In this document: in pieces, positions 22,986 through 59,108 of the stretch
Layout: each line of letters begins with the position of its first letter
How positions within the stretch are numbered: the stretch's first letter is position 1
Source: Halothermothrix orenii H 168
Lineage (GTDB): Bacteria; Bacillota; Halanaerobiia; Halanaerobiales; Halothermotrichaceae
DNA length: 64,000 bases
Direction: 5' to 3'
Assembly (NCBI RefSeq): GCF_000020485.1
Contig: NC_011899.1
Location: 1,272,501 to 1,336,500 of the forward strand
Position numbers and translations under genes: made by a program
Notes under the pieces: model-generated
Told to the model about the DNA's origin: nothing
The model's input: only the letters and a program-made list of their open reading frames with translations
Databases searched by the model: none

Positions 22986-24365
22986 CTAAATAGTTGCCAG
23001 TCCTCTTATTGCTTTTACCCAATCTTTACCGCTATCTGGACCATTTATTGCAGGTATTTTTGCCTGTAACCACTTACTCCAATCCCTGTCCACTTTCTTA
23101 AACATATATTTTATTTTCCTTACCGGGTTTTTTATTGTGTAATACTGATCTCCAAGTCTTTCTTTTAATTCCTTGTTATGTTTTAACATTAAAATTCTAG
23201 CCATTGCCTCAGCACCTTTTTTGCTCCAATTCATTCCCTGGTTCTTCATCCTGCGAGCCACATTCTTATCCACATAGCCCTCAGCTGCTCCCATCCCATG
23301 TAATTCTTTATTCCTTAATTCTGTTGGTATTCGATATCTGTAATCTAATAAGTGCTCTTCATACTTTTTAAAATGCTTTATTATTTTCCTCCTCTTTTCT
23401 CGGTTTTCAGCTGTTTCTCCCATACATATTAACGATTCCAATGTGTCCAGAAATACCTGCTTTCTTCCTTCTGCTAATACCCTGCATAAATCATCTGCAA
23501 CTTCTCTTCCAAAGTATAATCCTATATCTCTTTTTATATGATACCTATCCAGTTGTACTATTATATTTTCAAAGTATTCCTTACTGGTCTTTTGTATCCA
23601 GCTGGCACCGTCCCCGTTTAATACTACTAAAGTGTTTTCAAGATTATATTTTTTGCTTATTTGATGGATTAATTCTTCATAAAAGTCATCTGCTTTTCCA
23701 TAGACTCCTGCTACTATTTGTGGCTCCTTCAATCTCTTCCGTTTTTTTGCTGGACTAGTGTATTCCCAGCCCTCATGGATTAATCCCAGTTTGATTTCCA
23801 GCTTCTTTCCTCCTTCTTCCTGACTACCAACCATTATCCCGTCAGCTTCAATGAATAGTAGTGGTATTTCTTTTTCCTCTCCTTTTAAAATCTTACCTCC
23901 AGTGAATACTTCCTCTTTTTCATGTTTGAGTCTCTCTGACTCCCTTTTTCCAAAATCCCTGACTTCATTAAAGATAGTTGTATGGCTTAAATGGGGAAAA
24001 CCGGCTTCAGCCAGTACTTCCTCCACTTGCCTGTAGCTCATCTTACTTGCCAGTATTACCAGCAGTTTTAGGTATTCTCCACTTACTCTTTTTTTCTTTT
24101 TTAACCCCAGTTTTTTGTCCAGTAAAATGACGCTTTTTCCTGTTTTTTGGTCTTTATATAGTCGCCTTCTAAGCTTGATGTTTCCAACTTTAGTCGATAT
24201 CGTTCTTTCTAAAAATCTTACTACTTCTAAATTTTTATCTTTATTTTTAAATAGCTCTTCTTCAAGCTTTTCTATTACCTTCTCCATTATCTGCCTTGCA
24301 AGTTCCAGTGCTGCCTTCTCCAAGGTATTGATATCTGTTATGTTTTGTAGTAAAATATTTACCAT
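22986..24365 (-). CDS. ISLre2 family (UPF0236) transposase
   Basis: The 459-residue protein is a full-length ISLre2/UPF0236 transposase. Typical parts are the N-terminal helix region, VGNIKLRRRLYKD, MSYRQVEEVLAEAGFPHLSH, the acidic EADGIMV, VVLNGDGASWIQKT, QLDRYHIKRDIG and the C-terminal KNQGMNWSKKGAEAMARI. The frame is uninterrupted, so the enzyme may be active. The start codon lies in the arm of a hairpin (24364-24408) that may limit its translation. It is the only transposase in the window. Confidence 0.92.
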   Translation of the reverse strand: MVNILLQNITDINTLEKAALELARQIMEKVIEKLEEELFKNKDKNLEVVRFLERTISTKVGNIKLRRRLYKDQKTGKSVILLDKKLGLKKKKRVSGEYLKLLVILASKMSYRQVEEVLAEAGFPHLSHTTIFNEVRDFGKRESERLKHEKEEVFTGGKILKGEEKEIPLLFIEADGIMVGSQEEGGKKLEIKLGLIHEGWEYTSPAKKRKRLKEPQIVAGVYGKADDFYEELIHQISKKYNLENTLVVLNGDGASWIQKTSKEYFENIIVQLDRYHIKRDIGLYFGREVADDLCRVLAEGRKQVFLDTLESLICMGETAENREKRRKIIKHFKKYEEHLLDYRYRIPTELRNKELHGMGAAEGYVDKNVARRMKNQGMNWSKKGAEAMARILMLKHNKELKERLGDQYYTIKNPVRKIKYMFKKVDRDWSKWLQAKIPAINGPDSGKDWVKAIRGLATI

Positions 24366-27187: not shown

Positions 27188-27217
27188 AAAAAACTAACCC
27201 TGTATGGTTAGTTTTTT
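27188..27217. terminator. Terminator of the structured RNA / mrp region
   Basis: A 12-bp stem (27188-27199 with 27206-27217, loop CTGTAT) is flanked by A-rich and T-rich runs, so it can work in both directions. On the minus strand it lies 37 nt after the structured RNA at 27254-27426. Confidence 0.85.
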
Positions 27218-27253
27218 AAAAATGAAATCTTTTTTATATCACTTTATTTAACG

Positions 27254-27426
27254 GTTCCGCCATGCCGTGTGGTCATTTATTTTGGTCCCTGTCTTCCAGG
27301 TGGGTGCCCTCCTACCTGGTTTGTATGTCCCTCTGTTAAAGGCATATACGCCGCAGGCAGAGTCCAGGCTCCCTTTCTATTTGGTGTTGGCCAAAACTAA
27401 ATTAACCATCACGGACATGGCAGAAC
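27254..27426 (-). ncRNA. Structured noncoding RNA, candidate 6S RNA
   Basis: About 173 nt closed by a long stem. GTTCCGCCATGCCGTGTGGT (27254-27273) pairs with 27405-27426 with only single-base bulges and mismatches. Inside are TTTTGG with CCAAAA, a hairpin of CCAGGT with ACCTGG, and CTCTG with CAGAG around a GGCG-TATA-TGCC loop. CCTGG and CCAGG offer an alternative pairing. It is GC-richer than its surroundings. On the minus strand a strong terminator follows after 37 nt, which sets the strand. Size, long rod-like closure and position between the aspS side and the cyclo-ligase/rarA genes fit 6S RNA. I could not align it to a known 6S sequence, and the promoter is unclear. Confidence 0.5.
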
Positions 27427-27464
27427 TTACTGTTCATACATATCTCAAGTTCAAATATATATTA

Positions 27465-28985
27465 TCACAAAACATTGGCCGTTGCAAGGCTGAGATATAC
27501 CAGTAAAAGTAAGAATATAACAGGAATCCACAGTAATTGAAATTGAAAAGAAACATAAACTGCCCTGTAAATAATAGCAGCCAGGTTCCTTATAAAATTA
27601 TAAAAATACCCCTCAAATACTTTTTCTGTATCCAGGGTCCGGTACAGTTTGCGGGATAACTTAATAACCCTCACAAACAGAGCCCTGAATATTTTTTTGA
27701 AATCAGGCCAGGGTTTTAAATACTTTTTTATTCCTTTAAAAATCACAAGGATAATAATTGCTGTGGTAGCATCGGCAAAAAGAATAATGACATTATGAAA
27801 GGTAAAAAGAGTGGGTTTGCCATGCACAAGCCGGGTATAAACTAAATCAGGCTTTAACATAACAATTAACATAATTAAAATTCCGGTAATCTGTGGCCAG
27901 CTGGACCTTAATACCGTTAAGTCACCAATCTTGACCTTATTTAACCTGAAATTACTACCTAAATCCTTAAAAAAAGCAAACCAGAGGAGCCTGAATCCGT
28001 ATAAAAATGTTACTATTCCGGTCAAGTGAATTAAAAACTCTCCTGCAAAACCACCTGGCAAGCTATATTTTAAATAATATTTGCTAAGATAACCGGGGAA
28101 AAATATAATCCCCATTAAAGACAATAAGGCCATTACTGAACTTATATAATTACCTGGTTGCTTTAAAAAAGGTTTTTTAAAATTAAATATAACCCGACCA
28201 CGGTATTCCTGTTCCCAGTAGCCACTACCTATAAATAACACTGTTTTGGCCAGACCATGACTTAATATATGAATTAAAGCCCCTGCCTTCCCATAACTGG
28301 ATCCAATTCCCAACCCCAGGGCAATATAACCCAGTTGACTTATAGTACTATAGGCAAGTATTAGTTTATAGTCACCGGAAGCAAGAGCCCTCAACCCACC
28401 ATAAATTATCATTAAAACCCCAAGAAAAAAGAGTAAGCGGTTATCACCGGGGAGAGTTCTGGCCAGAAGTATATAGCCAAGATTAACAACCCAACCCGAG
28501 AGAAGGGCACTTATGGGAGAAGGAGCTTTACTATGAACTACTGGCAACCAGAAATGGAGGCCAAACAGAGCACTTTTAGTTCCGACCCCAATAATTAAAA
28601 GAGTCTGTAAACTGACTTCATTTAAATACCCTATCTTATCATACCCATGATTTATAATTATGGCAACAGCCAGTAGTAACAGGGAAGTCCCTGCAAGCTG
28701 GACTAAAAAATATTGAACCCCCAGGTTGAAATCTTTTCTAAAGATCATTATAGCAGTAAATAAAGTTACAAGTTCCCAGGCCACTAAAAATATAACCCAG
28801 TCAGAAGTTAAAATAACGATCAGAGAAGCTATTAATGTACCCAGGTTCAGGAATATATATATATATTTCCCTTCTTTAAAGTAATAACACCCGGCTACAA
28901 TTGTTAGCATATTAATAATAAAAGCGGTCAATGCGAGGTACATATTTATATTAGTAATATCAATTAAATCCATTAATGGAATCAT
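27465..28985 (-). CDS. Proton-antiporter (MrpD/NuoL-N type) membrane subunit with long C-terminal extension
   Basis: The 506-residue membrane protein belongs to the Proton_antipo_M family. Conserved charged residues in helices are visible in VAWELVTLF, GTKSALFGLHFWLP and HGLAKTVLF. It differs from the MrpD next door by an extended C-terminal part (about 380-506) with extra helices and basic stretches. It is the last gene of the operon, 3 nt after mnhD, and probably takes the place of the antiporter-like N-terminal half of MrpA, which is missing as a single protein here. That equivalence is inferred. Confidence 0.82.
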   Translation of the reverse strand: MIPLMDLIDITNINMYLALTAFIINMLTIVAGCYYFKEGKYIYIFLNLGTLIASLIVILTSDWVIFLVAWELVTLFTAIMIFRKDFNLGVQYFLVQLAGTSLLLLAVAIIINHGYDKIGYLNEVSLQTLLIIGVGTKSALFGLHFWLPVVHSKAPSPISALLSGWVVNLGYILLARTLPGDNRLLFFLGVLMIIYGGLRALASGDYKLILAYSTISQLGYIALGLGIGSSYGKAGALIHILSHGLAKTVLFIGSGYWEQEYRGRVIFNFKKPFLKQPGNYISSVMALLSLMGIIFFPGYLSKYYLKYSLPGGFAGEFLIHLTGIVTFLYGFRLLWFAFFKDLGSNFRLNKVKIGDLTVLRSSWPQITGILIMLIVMLKPDLVYTRLVHGKPTLFTFHNVIILFADATTAIIILVIFKGIKKYLKPWPDFKKIFRALFVRVIKLSRKLYRTLDTEKVFEGYFYNFIRNLAAIIYRAVYVSFQFQLLWIPVIFLLLLVYLSLATANVL

Positions 28986-28988
28986 GAT

Positions 28989-30509
28989 TTATCTCCCCAG
29001 CAGCTGGCTAATGTATTTGCCATTATCAAGTAATGCTTCAGCAGCACCCAGCAATGGGCCATCAAATCTGTAATAAAAAAAACCAGATAAAACTACTAAT
29101 CCAAAAAATATTAGCACAACCATTACAACAGCTTGCTCCCGGTGAAATCCTGGAAACAGAACACTGGTTTCAAAAATATTATTTTCATTATAATCTACGT
29201 TTACTCTGGTAATCATGTATTTATAAATCCTGAGATAATAGATAACTGACAGAAAGCTTCCAAAAAGAACAACAAAAGCCCCAAAGTAATGGCCTTTTTC
29301 CAGAAAAGCTTTTAAGATAAACCATTTACCATAAAACCCATTCAGTGGAGGTATACCAATCATAGCCAGTCCGGCTGTAAAAATACTTAAGGTAACAGGG
29401 GGGTTAATATAAGCTATCCCCTTTAACTTTTTTATCCTGTGTTCTGAGGTAAACTTTAATAAATATCCAACCCCCAGGAAAAGTGTTATTTTCATAGTTA
29501 AATGGCTTATTACATGTATTAACCCTCCGTAGACACCTGAAATACTCCCCAGAAACAGGGAACCAATAATAATACCTGTATGGGCTATACTTGAAAAGGC
29601 AAGTACTCTCTTTATATCCTCTTCCTGCAAGGCAAAAATATGACCCAGCAGGGATGATACCAGAGCCATATAAATTATAACCGGTAAAAGTTTATCACCC
29701 TGGTTTATTCCAAAAACCGTCCAGAACAACCTGATGAAAACATAGATATAAACCTTCAATAGTAAACCTGATAGGAGAGCACTTATAGAACTGGGACAGG
29801 CACTGTGGGCTTTGGCCAGCCAGAAATGAAATGGGAATACCCCCAATTTTATCAATAAACTTGTAAGGAAAATAACTTTAATAAAATTTCTGGTGGTTAA
29901 AGGTATATGCTTAAATCTATCAGCCACTATAGCCATGTTCAAAGCCCCGGTAGTCTGGTATATTATAACTATTCCAATGAAAAATAACAGACCACTGATA
30001 ATACCATATATTAAGTATTTTATTCCTGCCTCTGTCCCCTTTTCGGTCCTGGTAAACGCCACCAGAGGAGCCGATGCTACCGTTATTAATTCTATAAATA
30101 CATACTGATTAAATATATCACCAGTTAAAACTACACCCTGCATAGCAGCAAAGAGTAAAAAGAGCAGCACATAATATTTGCCCTCATGGTGACCTATAAA
30201 ACCAATCGAATATAAAATAATTAAAAACATGGCTATATTAATCAGGATGGTGAAAAATAATCCCAGTCCATCAACGGCAATATTAATTCCTATTTCAGGA
30301 CCCCATCCTCCCAGTAAATAATAACTAAAATAATCCTTATAGCCTTCAACCCTGTAATCAATAATAATTCTTCCAATCAATATTACTTCCAGAAACGAGA
30401 CACCGACTACGAGGTATTTTCTCAGACGCTTATTTATGATATCAATTAATGGAATTAAAAAGGCAGTAGACAGGGGTATTATGATTAACATTAATATTGA
30501 CAAAGACAT
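28989..30509 (-). CDS. mnhD: Na+/H+ antiporter subunit MnhD/MrpD
   Basis: A 506-residue proton-channel-like membrane protein. Diagnostic helices carry FIELITVASAPLVAF (glutamate), IKLGVFPFHFWLAKAHSACP (lysine) and HLTMKITLFLGVGYLL. It is the MrpD-type subunit, related to NuoM/NuoN of complex I, and forms an ion path in the Mrp complex. Its start overlaps the mnhC stop by one base. Confidence 0.92.
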   Translation of the reverse strand: MSLSILMLIIIPLSTAFLIPLIDIINKRLRKYLVVGVSFLEVILIGRIIIDYRVEGYKDYFSYYLLGGWGPEIGINIAVDGLGLFFTILINIAMFLIILYSIGFIGHHEGKYYVLLFLLFAAMQGVVLTGDIFNQYVFIELITVASAPLVAFTRTEKGTEAGIKYLIYGIISGLLFFIGIVIIYQTTGALNMAIVADRFKHIPLTTRNFIKVIFLTSLLIKLGVFPFHFWLAKAHSACPSSISALLSGLLLKVYIYVFIRLFWTVFGINQGDKLLPVIIYMALVSSLLGHIFALQEEDIKRVLAFSSIAHTGIIIGSLFLGSISGVYGGLIHVISHLTMKITLFLGVGYLLKFTSEHRIKKLKGIAYINPPVTLSIFTAGLAMIGIPPLNGFYGKWFILKAFLEKGHYFGAFVVLFGSFLSVIYYLRIYKYMITRVNVDYNENNIFETSVLFPGFHREQAVVMVVLIFFGLVVLSGFFYYRFDGPLLGAAEALLDNGKYISQLLGR

Positions 30510-30841
30510 TAGTCATCCAGCCCCTTTAATTCATCAATGTTAACTGTATCCCGATGTTTACTTAATTCAATAATTAAGGTCAATAATAAAGCAGTCGTAC
30601 TGGCCCCGATAACAATTGCTGTCAGGGCTAAAGCCTGAGGCAAGGGATCACTTACCTTTTCGACCATATCTTCCATATTCATAATTGGCGCTTTTCCACG
30701 GTCAGAAATAGCTATTAACCAGAAGAGGACCGAAGCTTCCATGATATTTAATCCGATAACTATCTTTATTAAATTCTTTTTAGTTAGTAATGTATAAAAG
30801 CCCAACATGAATAGCAGGATAAACACCAGGTGATATAACAC
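30509..30841 (-). CDS. mnhC: Na+/H+ antiporter subunit MnhC/MrpC
   Basis: A NuoK-like subunit with three membrane helices; the motif IVIGLNIMEASVLFWLIA is typical of MrpC. I start it at GTG 30841, six bases after GAGGAGG, giving 110 residues. The longer frame from TTG 30856 overlaps that ribosome site. The conserved glutamate in NIMEASV matches the NuoK/MrpC glutamate. Confidence 0.91.
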   Translation of the reverse strand: MLYHLVFILLFMLGFYTLLTKKNLIKIVIGLNIMEASVLFWLIAISDRGKAPIMNMEDMVEKVSDPLPQALALTAIVIGASTTALLLTLIIELSKHRDTVNIDELKGLDD

Positions 30842-30842
30842 T

Positions 30843-31568
30843 TTAATCCTCCTCAAAGGTTTTCTGGATCATACTATAAAACATAATAGCAAGTCCGGCC
30901 CCGACTTTAAAACCTATACTTATATTAATCAGGGGAATACTACCGGCACTGATAATTTTACCTATCCTGGCTTTAAAGATGGGTAAGTTGCTCAAAAATA
31001 TTCCATCTATTAAAATACCTAAAATGGCTACAATAATAAAAACCAGGGCTCCTCCGGTCTCAATAATGGTTTTACTGTCAGGACTATATTTATTATAATC
31101 AAAGGCACTACCGTAAACAACACTAAAAATAATGGAAATAACTGCCAGAATTACCCCTCCCTGAAATCCACCACCCGGAGAAAGATGGCCATGGAGCATG
31201 AGGTAAATACTAAATAAAAAGATAAAAGGAGTTAAAAGCCCGAAGGTCCTTTTAACAATAAAGGTTAAACCCCTGGATGATACCGGCAACCTTTTCCTTG
31301 ATAGAATTAAAACTATACCACTTACAGCGGCAAATATAACCGTACTTTCTCCCAGGGAGTCAAAAGCACGATAATCATATAAAATTGAAGTCACCAGATT
31401 TAAGGAACCACTCTCCCTTACCCCTTCTTTAATATAATGATCAGATGCTGAGTTAAAAGTTGAATTCAGAGGAAGTTTATTAAAGTAACCTGCCAGAATT
31501 AATCCCAGTGTTAAAAGTATAATGCCAACAAAGATATTTTTTAATTTTTTCCTTTGAATATTAATCAT
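30843..31568 (-). CDS. mnhB: Fused MrpA-C-terminal (MbhE-like) and MnhB subunit
   Basis: The 241-residue protein joins two parts. The N-terminal part (about 1-95) resembles the far C-terminus of MrpA, or MbhE in archaeal membrane-bound hydrogenases (NLVTSILYDYRAFDSLGE). The C-terminal part (about 100-240) is MnhB/MbhF, with YLMLHGHLSPGGGFQGGVILA. In MrpABCDEFG systems these lie in separate proteins. It overlaps the DUF4040 gene by 8 nt and shares its AGGAGGG ribosome site. Confidence 0.9.
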   Translation of the reverse strand: MINIQRKKLKNIFVGIILLTLGLILAGYFNKLPLNSTFNSASDHYIKEGVRESGSLNLVTSILYDYRAFDSLGESTVIFAAVSGIVLILSRKRLPVSSRGLTFIVKRTFGLLTPFIFLFSIYLMLHGHLSPGGGFQGGVILAVISIIFSVVYGSAFDYNKYSPDSKTIIETGGALVFIIVAILGILIDGIFLSNLPIFKARIGKIISAGSIPLINISIGFKVGAGLAIMFYSMIQKTFEED

Positions 31569-31803
31569 TATCCCTCCTCACCTGGCTAATAGCTGTAATA
31601 AATATTGCGGTATTTATTCCTGCACCTATAACCGCTTCAGCCAGTGAGACATCCGGAGCCTGGTAGACCAGGTACAAAATAGAGAGAACAATAGAAAAGA
31701 TAGAAAAGGCCAGTACGGAGTTTAAAATATTTCTAAAACATACCGTTATTGTTGCTGTCACTACCAGGAAAACCAGTAAAATACCTTCAAGAATTATCAT
31801 CAA
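31561..31803 (-). CDS. DUF4040/MbhD-like subunit (detached MrpA domain)
   Basis: An 80-residue, three-helix protein with the motif YQAPDVSLAEAVIGAGINTAIF. This is the DUF4040 domain, which in group 1 Mrp systems is part of the large MrpA chain and in archaeal Mbh/Mbx is the separate MbhD subunit. Here it is separate and overlaps mnhG by 4 nt (ATGA). Confidence 0.9.
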   Translation of the reverse strand: MMIILEGILLVFLVVTATITVCFRNILNSVLAFSIFSIVLSILYLVYQAPDVSLAEAVIGAGINTAIFITAISQVRRDND

Positions 31804-32144
31804 TCATCATTCCCGAGATATAATGAGTATTCATCCTTTTTATATTTATCCGGTTTTGCTATTTTTTTACGGTAGGAAGCCCGGGCAATGGCATGGGTAG
31901 CCATGGGATTGGAAATAAGAAAGAAAAAACCAATTAAAAGAATTTTCAAGCTCAGGTAAAATTCCCAGACATATATAGAAGCACCAACTGATATCAAAAC
32001 CGCACTTATGGTAAGGGCAACTGCCCCGGCATGCATCCTGGTATATAAGTCAGGAAATCTCAATAATCCCAGGACTGTTACTACCCCAAAAAAGCCACCC
32101 AATCCAAATAATATATAGGAAATAATAACCCTTAAATAATTCAT
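31800..32144 (-). CDS. mnhG: Na+/H+ antiporter subunit MnhG/MrpG
   Basis: A 114-residue membrane protein with the MnhG signature LGLLRFPDLYTRMHAGA and SNPMATHAIARASYR. It is a small accessory subunit of the Mrp complex. It overlaps mnhF by 4 nt, so translation is coupled. Confidence 0.94.
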   Translation of the reverse strand: MNYLRVIISYILFGLGGFFGVVTVLGLLRFPDLYTRMHAGAVALTISAVLISVGASIYVWEFYLSLKILLIGFFFLISNPMATHAIARASYRKKIAKPDKYKKDEYSLYLGNDD

Positions 32145-32398
32145 TTAAATAACTCCTTATGCTCAAAATATTTAGCAAAAATAAGGACATCTACAAATAA
32201 CAAAACCGCATAAGCCAGGACTACATCTATTAATATTTCTATATTAAAATATAATCCCACCATCAGGATAACCATAGACAGGAGAACACCGATAGAATCG
32301 GCTGCAATCAACCTATCAGGAATAGTGGGGCCGACTATAACACGATATAGACACATAATTGCCAGTAATGATAAAAAAATACTCATAAATATTATCAT
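32141..32398 (-). CDS. mnhF: Na+/H+ antiporter subunit MnhF/MrpF
   Basis: An 85-residue protein with three helices and the MnhF signature RVIVGPTIPDRLIAADSIGV, which includes the conserved aspartates. It overlaps mnhE by 4 nt. Essential small subunit of the Mrp cation/proton antiporter. Confidence 0.94.
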   Translation of the reverse strand: MIIFMSIFLSLLAIMCLYRVIVGPTIPDRLIAADSIGVLLSMVILMVGLYFNIEILIDVVLAYAVLLFVDVLIFAKYFEHKELFK

Positions 32399-32913
32399 CT
32401 AAAAATCACTCCAAGCCACCTTTCAAACCTCTCAATTAAGGCCTTTCTGGTTTCAGCTTCTTCTTCAGTGTGTACATCTATCCAGTGTATATAAAAGGAC
32501 CTTTCACTGGTATCAAAATCAAGGGTTAAAGTACCGGGGGTCAGTGTAATCAAATTGGCCAGAATTGTAATGGCTGATACATTGGTTAAACTGGTCTTTA
32601 CTTTGACAATCCCCGGTGAAAAACTGGGAGTCTTTTCAAAAGCATGTCGGGCTACTTTAATAGCGGCAACAAAGGCTTCATAAAAAAATACAAATATAAA
32701 TAATATCATTAATAATATTTTCCGGACATATACTTTAAAGGAATAAGTCCTTGAAGAAAATCTGAATAACATATCACTGAAAAGAAAGCTGGATACCAGG
32801 GAAACAATTATCCCCAGTAAAAGAGTATCCTTACCCGGGCTGGCTGTTAATAACATCCAGACAAGAAAAACAAATATAAAAGTAAAGACCCTTCCTTTTT
32901 TATTTTTCTTCAT
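32395..32913 (-). CDS. mnhE: Na+/H+ antiporter subunit MnhE/MrpE
   Basis: A 172-residue membrane protein of the MnhE family. Visible family features are VWMLLTASP near the N-terminus, PGIVKVKTSLTN, ANLITLTPGTLTLDF and the C-terminal HWIDVHTEEEAE. It is the first gene of the operon E-F-G-DUF4040-B-C-D-D2, all overlapping or within 3 nt. The complex exports Na+ in exchange for protons and supports growth in salt or alkali. Confidence 0.93.
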   Translation of the reverse strand: MKKNKKGRVFTFIFVFLVWMLLTASPGKDTLLLGIIVSLVSSFLFSDMLFRFSSRTYSFKVYVRKILLMILFIFVFFYEAFVAAIKVARHAFEKTPSFSPGIVKVKTSLTNVSAITILANLITLTPGTLTLDFDTSERSFYIHWIDVHTEEEAETRKALIERFERWLGVIFR

Positions 32914-33471: not shown

Positions 33472-35244
33472 CTAATCTATTTTTATATGGAGTTCTCGAA
33501 GCTGTTTCTCGGCAACTGTTGATGGAGCCTCTGTTAATGGTGATGATGCCTTCTGGGTTTTGGGGAAGGCAATAACATCTCTCATGGATTCTGAACCACT
33601 TAATACCATTAATAAACGATCCAGTCCAAAGGCTATACCGCCATGGGGTGGAGCCCCATAATTAAAGGCTTCCAATAAAAACCCAAATTTGTCACTGGCT
33701 TTTTCTTCACTTATATTTAAGGCATTAAAAACTTTCATCTGGAGATCTTTATTATTAATACGGATACTTCCCCCACCCAGTTCTTCACCATTTAATACAA
33801 AATCATAGGCCTTGGATCTAATTTTTTCAGGATTACTATCAAGTAATGGAATATCTTCATCTAGAGGAGCAGTGAAAGGGTGGTGTTTGGCTACATAACG
33901 ACCTTCATCCTCATCATACTCCATCAAGGGAAAATCAACTACCCAGACAAATTTATAAACACCATCAGGAATTAAACCCTCTTCCCTGGCAATCTTAAGT
34001 CTGAGGTTCCCCAGAGCATCAGCGACAATCGAGGGCTTATCGGCTACAAACAGGAGTAAGTCTCCAGTTTGGGCACCCATTTTTTCTTTTATGCCTTCAA
34101 GCTCTTTTTCAGATAAAAACTTGGCAATCGGTGACTTAAGACCATTTTCCTTTAAAGCAATCCAGGCAAGGCCTTTAGCTCCAAATATTTTTACATAATC
34201 TGTATAACCATCAATCTTACTCCTGGGTGAGATGGCACCACCTTTAAAGTTAATGCCCTTCACCTGACCTCCATCCTTTACAACCCCGCTAAAAACCCTG
34301 AATTCACTATCTTTGACTACATCAGAAACATCCTTTAGTTCCATACCAAACCTTAAATCAGGTTTATCTGAACCAAACCTATCTATTGCTTCCTGGTAAG
34401 GCATAACAGGAATTTTTTCCGGAATCTCAATATCAACAAGGGCAAATAATCTTTTCATAAGACCATTTACCAGTGAGAAAACATCCTCTTTATCTATAAA
34501 TGACATTTCAATATCAATCTGGGTAAACTCCGGTTGTCTATTTGCCCTTAAATCTTCATCCCGGAAACAACGGGCTATCTGAAAATATCTTTCAACCCCA
34601 CCTACCATTAGCAGCTGTTTAAAAAGCTGGGGAGACTGGGGCAGGGCATAAAAATGACCGGGGTGAATTCTACTGGGCACCAGATAATCCCTGGCTCCTT
34701 CCGGAGTACTACGGGTTAAAATCGGCGTCTCAACTTCCCAGAATCCATTGTCATCAAGGTAATCCCGGGTAGTCTTCATGACCCTGTGTCGGAGTTCTAA
34801 ATTCTTTTTCATGCGGGGTCTCCTCAGGTCAAGATATCTATACTTTAACCGCAAATCCTCCCCTACATTTATATCATCATCTATTTCAAAGGGAGGGGTC
34901 TCAGATTCATCCAGTATTCTTAATCTATTTCCCCTGATTTCTATTTCACCGGTGGGAATGTCTGGATTAATGTTACCTTCCGGCCTCTTTTCAACCTCTC
35001 CTTCTACAGCAATTACGTACTCAGACCTCAATTCAGTAGCCTTTTTAAAAGCCCGCTCATTATTATCAGGATTAAAAACCACCTGGACAATACCAGATCT
35101 ATCCCTGAGGTCAATAAAAATTACTCCCCCATGATCTCTTCTCTTCTGTACCCAACCCATTACAGTTACCTTTTTACCTATTTGTTGGGTAGAAATCTTT
35201 CCGGCATAGTGTGTTCTCTTAAGTCCATTTATACTCTCAGCCAT
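33472..35244 (-). CDS. aspS: Aspartyl-tRNA synthetase
   Basis: The 590-residue class II synthetase has the OB-fold anticodon domain (VMGWVQKRRDHGGVIFIDLRD), motif 2 with CFRDEDLRANRQPEFTQID, the bacterial GAD insertion and motif 3 GGIAFGLDRLLMVL. It charges tRNA-Asp. ATG 35244 lies 10 nt after GGAGG; the TTG just before it is also in frame. It follows hisS by 13 nt, the usual hisS-aspS pair of Firmicutes. Confidence 0.97.
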   Translation of the reverse strand: MAESINGLKRTHYAGKISTQQIGKKVTVMGWVQKRRDHGGVIFIDLRDRSGIVQVVFNPDNNERAFKKATELRSEYVIAVEGEVEKRPEGNINPDIPTGEIEIRGNRLRILDESETPPFEIDDDINVGEDLRLKYRYLDLRRPRMKKNLELRHRVMKTTRDYLDDNGFWEVETPILTRSTPEGARDYLVPSRIHPGHFYALPQSPQLFKQLLMVGGVERYFQIARCFRDEDLRANRQPEFTQIDIEMSFIDKEDVFSLVNGLMKRLFALVDIEIPEKIPVMPYQEAIDRFGSDKPDLRFGMELKDVSDVVKDSEFRVFSGVVKDGGQVKGINFKGGAISPRSKIDGYTDYVKIFGAKGLAWIALKENGLKSPIAKFLSEKELEGIKEKMGAQTGDLLLFVADKPSIVADALGNLRLKIAREEGLIPDGVYKFVWVVDFPLMEYDEDEGRYVAKHHPFTAPLDEDIPLLDSNPEKIRSKAYDFVLNGEELGGGSIRINNKDLQMKVFNALNISEEKASDKFGFLLEAFNYGAPPHGGIAFGLDRLLMVLSGSESMRDVIAFPKTQKASSPLTEAPSTVAEKQLRELHIKID

Positions 35245-35260
35245 CAATTAACTTCCTCCT

Positions 35261-58755: not shown

Positions 58756-59108
<353 letters not shown>

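Follow-up and report, generated by a model that had tools for sequence, protein, structure and literature searches.

6S RNA is a well-established regulator that occupies RNA polymerase by mimicking an open promoter. According to passages in PMC8876501, the mechanism of 6S RNA (SsrS, Rfam family RF00013) comprises capture of RNA polymerase, synthesis of a short product RNA (pRNA) and release, and the 6S-1 RNA (BsrA) of Bacillus subtilis is known to carry a small hairpin within its central bubble. Rules for the pRNA, namely GG at positions 4/5 or 5/6, AA at positions 9/10 and an adjoining A, are given in sections of PMC8414754, which also place rarA beside the 6S gene in lactic acid bacteria and B. 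subtilis. A cyclo-ligase gene is the neighbor of 6S in some Firmicutes as well as in alpha- and gamma-Proteobacteria, as stated in part of PMC9130861.

We analyzed a 64,000-nucleotide stretch of the Halothermothrix orenii H 168 genome (the window) and compared a structured RNA encoded on its minus strand with these systems. The RNA resembles 6S RNA in its full-length sequence and structure, with the closing stem, central bubble and apical stem, and also in its size, its occurrence as a single gene and its gene neighborhood. It differs in local details only: one base inserted in the 5′ bubble in an alignment of 30 loci from the same order, a G-C pair in helix P2, and a 3′ trailer longer than in most relatives. 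Small RNAs are named at the B. subtilis site in passages of the literature, and these we take to be 6S-1. Like 6S-1, the window RNA has a small hairpin on the 3′ side of its bubble, and a 6S position downstream of aspS is general in the order; at the window locus, by contrast with B. subtilis, an mrp operon lies between aspS and 6S.

A single 6S RNA match and its structure

The minus strand from 27429 to 27250 matched the Rfam 6S RNA model over its full length (model positions 1 to 187 of 187, not truncated) with 98.0 bits and an E value of 1.9e-18. This is roughly twice the gathering score of 46.4 bits that serves as the cut-off for 6S membership. The whole genome, a single contig of 2,578,146 bases, contained no other RF00013 match even at E ≤ 10, and thus no second 6S copy at that threshold. 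At 180 nt, the RNA falls within the range expected for 6S (~160 to 200 nt), and it has the corresponding rod shape.

Folding of the minus strand yielded −75.3 kcal/mol, compared with −47.95 ± 3.79 kcal/mol in 200 dinucleotide shuffles (z = −7.22), none of which folded as well. A long palindromic stem is common to both strands, and the plus strand also folded, though more weakly (z = −4.71). We placed the RNA on the minus strand because the model match falls there, and rejected a plus-strand RNA on account of its weaker fold and the lack of any Rfam match on that strand of the locus at E ≤ 1. In the predicted fold, nt 4-39 pair with nt 145-176, interrupted by a few bulges, to form the closing stem.

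A single 6S match was present in each of 35 of the 38 genomes of the same order (Halanaerobiales), and 145 of 149 genomes in a sample of the phylum had a match, some of them two or three; this left three genomes in the order and four in the phylum sample without one. Thirty of the 35 order loci, all set on one strand, were aligned with a mean column identity of 79%. Their consensus fold (RNAalifold) is a canonical rod with a central bubble and 46 pairs. Across these loci, 98.7% of the 1380 cells were paired, compared with 91.1% in shuffles, and sliding the pair partners by 1 to 3 columns lowered pairing to 35 to 47%. Both sides had changed in 18 of the 46 consensus pairs, including 6 of the terminal 15 pairs of the closing stem. 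The covariation score was 0.277 versus 0.128 in shuffles and was reached by none of 500 shuffles, a control that disregards sequence relatedness, which the slid-partner control retains. Within the otherwise invariant helix P2, the window genome alone has a G-C pair in place of the A-U found at the other 29 loci, which is a compensatory change. The small 3′ bubble hairpin showed almost no covariation, although 94.1% of its cells were paired in the 30 relatives; from the predicted fold, it is plausible as a conserved branch.

The structured element that a sequence-only reading of this DNA had placed at 27254-27426 is present, with somewhat wider best bounds (Table 1) and the RNA on the minus strand, and the long closing stem that it described is borne out by both the fold and the relatives. 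Its guess of a 6S RNA was supported by the Infernal search with the Rfam 6S model that it had suggested, and the compensatory changes for which it had recommended looking in relatives proved plentiful. A clear 6S gene elsewhere in the genome, which it had named, together with no expression here, as counting against the guess, did not turn up.

Table 1. Positions of the 6S RNA, its predicted signals and other features in the window
Feature	Position	Strand	Basis
6S RNA (ssrS), ~180 nt	27250..27429	−	RF00013 98.0 bits, fold z −7.22, covariation in 30 relatives
Predicted housekeeping promoter, extended −10: TTGCAA - 14 nt - TGA - TAATAT (window letters TTGCAA...TGATAATAT, 27487-27459)	27459..27487	−	Pattern in relatives
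Predicted pRNA, 5′-GUUGGCCAAAACUA	27386..27399	+	Alignment with published rules; start opposite C44
Small hairpin, 3′ half of central bubble (nt 130-142), 4 bp	27288..27300	−	Predicted fold; pairing in 30 relatives
Intrinsic terminator, 12-bp stem (27217-27206 / 27199-27188), 6-nt loop, U tract	27188..27217	−	Stem in run of 8 U
Multi-gene mrp-type cation/proton antiporter operon	27465-32913		
aspS	33472-35247		
ISLre2-family transposase gene, intact-looking	22986-24365	−	NF033529, 349 bits
RNase P RNA, bacterial class A	58757-59103	−	323.6 bits

Predicted promoter and terminator

The predicted promoter of the window 6S RNA has its −35 element inside the final codons of an mrp gene ending at 27465 and its −10 element right past the stop codon of that gene. 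The promoter overlaps the end of this last mrp gene, which is 35 bases from 6S. The pattern TTGNNN-N14-TGn-TANNNT occurred within 100 nt upstream of 6S in all 30 aligned order loci; when the same upstream regions were shuffled (300 dinucleotide rounds), it turned up in 0.17 of 30 on average and in at most 2. It was also found at the five further order loci, giving 35/35, and at 21 of the 29 best-scoring phylum loci. The spacer of this extended −10 promoter is fixed at 17 nt in all 35 order loci. A simple promoter scan listed no promoter upstream of the window 6S because it requires 9 matching consensus bases, and the −35 and −10 elements together have 8 of 12; it was the relatives that revealed the promoter. 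Placed 7 nt after the −10 element, the transcription start would lie near 27452, implying a leader of ~23 nt. Since the −10 element lies anywhere between 11 and 48 nt from the 6S start in the 30 order loci, we infer that 5′ trimming, and with it 5′ processing of a 6S precursor, is likely in the order.

The strong terminator claimed for the minus side was also found, as a U-tailed stem of 12 bp. It begins 32 nt past the 6S 3′ end in the window and within a few nt of it in most relatives, and the mature 3′ end of the RNA is uncertain because the terminator sits that far beyond the 3′ end of the model. By loose criteria, and in T-rich DNA, a terminator-like hairpin followed by a U run was observed in 26 of the 30 order loci, whereas 20 rounds of shuffling averaged 11.2 and never exceeded 15/30. 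A simple terminator scan of the window did not list the 27217-27188 stem, we suppose because the stem runs into its own U tract. As judged from sequence evidence, the predicted promoter and terminator would give 6S a transcription unit of its own across the order.

Gene neighborhood and alternative explanations

The gene order across the order is aspS - 6S - cyclo-ligase - rarA. Counting same-strand neighbors within ~1.5 kb at the 35 order loci, we found rarA downstream at 32, the cyclo-ligase gene downstream at 29 and aspS upstream at 28, some contigs being short. Among the 29 best-scoring phylum loci, aspS was upstream at 28, rarA downstream at five and the cyclo-ligase gene downstream at none. 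A scan of genome contigs yielded 80 further loci with cyclo-ligase relatives, none of which enters these counts. In the window, genes for a 5-formyltetrahydrofolate cyclo-ligase (TIGR02727) and a RarA-type ATPase lie downstream of 6S, and the mrp-type antiporter operon stands between aspS and 6S. The neighbors are thus as the sequence-only reading had them, with the mrp operon upstream, the cyclo-ligase gene and rarA downstream and aspS further upstream. Both of the locus analogies that it drew hold as well, the order keeping aspS and rarA near 6S together with the cyclo-ligase gene as in Proteobacteria. Further downstream, a YigZ-family gene follows rarA, and the ISLre2 transposase gene is located ~0.2 kb beyond it.

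Only in the window, one of the 35 order loci, was the last mrp gene found directly upstream of 6S (within 1.5 kb). H. orenii belongs to a salt- and heat-loving lineage. One could imagine that 6S expression depends in part on the mrp sodium/proton antiporter operon and that transcripts reading through under ion stress might increase the amount of 6S, an idea we consider a long shot.

The three order genomes without an RF00013 match were G024, G032 and G036, and we used aspS to locate the site in each. The aspS match in G036 reaches only residue 551 of 591, probably breaking off at a contig end, and G032 had no aspS match; the missing 6S in these two genomes may reflect draft gaps. G024 is an estimated 98% complete and had no RF00013 match at E ≤ 10. 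Its 381-nt gap between aspS and rarA holds a 211-nt palindromic rod (L141:1196-1406) with a fold z of −6.76. We rejected this rod as a divergent 6S RNA, since it is a multicopy repeat: G024 carries 21 near-full copies plus a fragment, and the other 37 order genomes carry none. In G024, a MITE-like repeat thus sits where relatives have 6S and the cyclo-ligase gene, and loss of 6S is possible.

Two other explanations of the window RNA were considered. The sequence-only reading had noted branching richer than that of a simple 6S rod and had suggested that the RNA might be an undescribed one, merely resembling 6S. The single-sequence fold does contain an extra hairpin; this branch, however, is the 4-bp bubble hairpin, and the consensus of the 30 relatives is the canonical rod. 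The full-length RF00013 match stands well above the cut-off, the gene context is that of 6S loci throughout the order, and a structured RNA of another kind here would leave the genome without any 6S. We regard this explanation as extremely improbable, the model match and covariation having already refuted it. A cis-acting leader, either a riboswitch or an attenuator of the cyclo-ligase - rarA genes, would fit the location of the RNA upstream of the cyclo-ligase gene on the same strand, an arrangement found at 29 of 35 order loci. Against it, the terminator stands between the RNA and the cyclo-ligase gene, no Rfam riboswitch overlaps the RNA, and 6 of the 35 order loci, including one whose contig is short, had no cyclo-ligase gene that we could find beside 6S. 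A promoter-like TTGATA - 17 - TATTAT lies past the terminator (27141-27113, minus strand) and also argues against a leader, although the scan finds about as many such matches in shuffles. We give this explanation as little credence as the previous one. A search of a phage collection gave no match for the locus. We conclude that the minus-strand RNA is the only 6S RNA that the genome encodes, with its own predicted extended −10 promoter and intrinsic terminator, and put the probability of this at about 0.98.

Predicted pRNA and implications for the order

The predicted pRNA would be copied from helix P2 and the 5′ side of the central bubble in the minus-strand RNA. From the alignment, the pRNA is predicted to start opposite C44 and to begin GUUGGCCAAAACU. 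It fits the published rules, with an upstream A, GG at 4/5 and AA at 9/10; in B. subtilis 6S-1, according to part of PMC8414754, the GG is at 5/6. The template core TTTTG[AG]CCAACA was present in all 30 aligned order loci and in three of the five further ones (33/35), and the remaining two read TTTTGACCAACT, in which T replaces the last A of the core. A template in the 5′ central bubble with a C start, an adjoining A and GG in the predicted pRNA, as expected of 6S RNA, is conserved in the order.

By its predicted signals, transcription of the RNA would start on the minus strand at its own extended −10 promoter, where the mrp operon ends, and stop at the intrinsic terminator, and the RNA would fold into a rod whose central bubble imitates an open promoter. 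By analogy with the family, it would then capture RNA polymerase carrying the housekeeping sigma factor, restraining the polymerase during slowed growth. Once nucleotides are available again, the polymerase would copy the 5′ side of the bubble into the short pRNA, which would open helix P2 and free the polymerase. In the predicted fold, blocking nt 31-44 to mimic a 14-nt pRNA left the whole of P2 (nt 29-39 with 145-154) unpaired, and the closing and apical stems stayed in place. No new helix of the kind that collapses the central bubble appeared in the predicted polymerase-free fold with either nt 31-44 or nt 29-44 blocked. In this the predicted fold differs from B. subtilis 6S-1, and it lends no support to the collapse-helix part of a B. 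subtilis-type release, although a prediction without polymerase is compatible with such a helix.

The 6S RNA of the window is real but ordinary. Its class, structure, mechanism and neighborhood have all been described, a public model finds the RNA at once, and the RNA adds nothing to what is understood of the 6S class. A search of a paper library found no paper joining 6S RNA with Halothermothrix or Halanaerobi-. The value of the finding is as annotation for the order, for which it supplies the identity of the RNA, its strand and ends, a predicted promoter and a predicted pRNA site.
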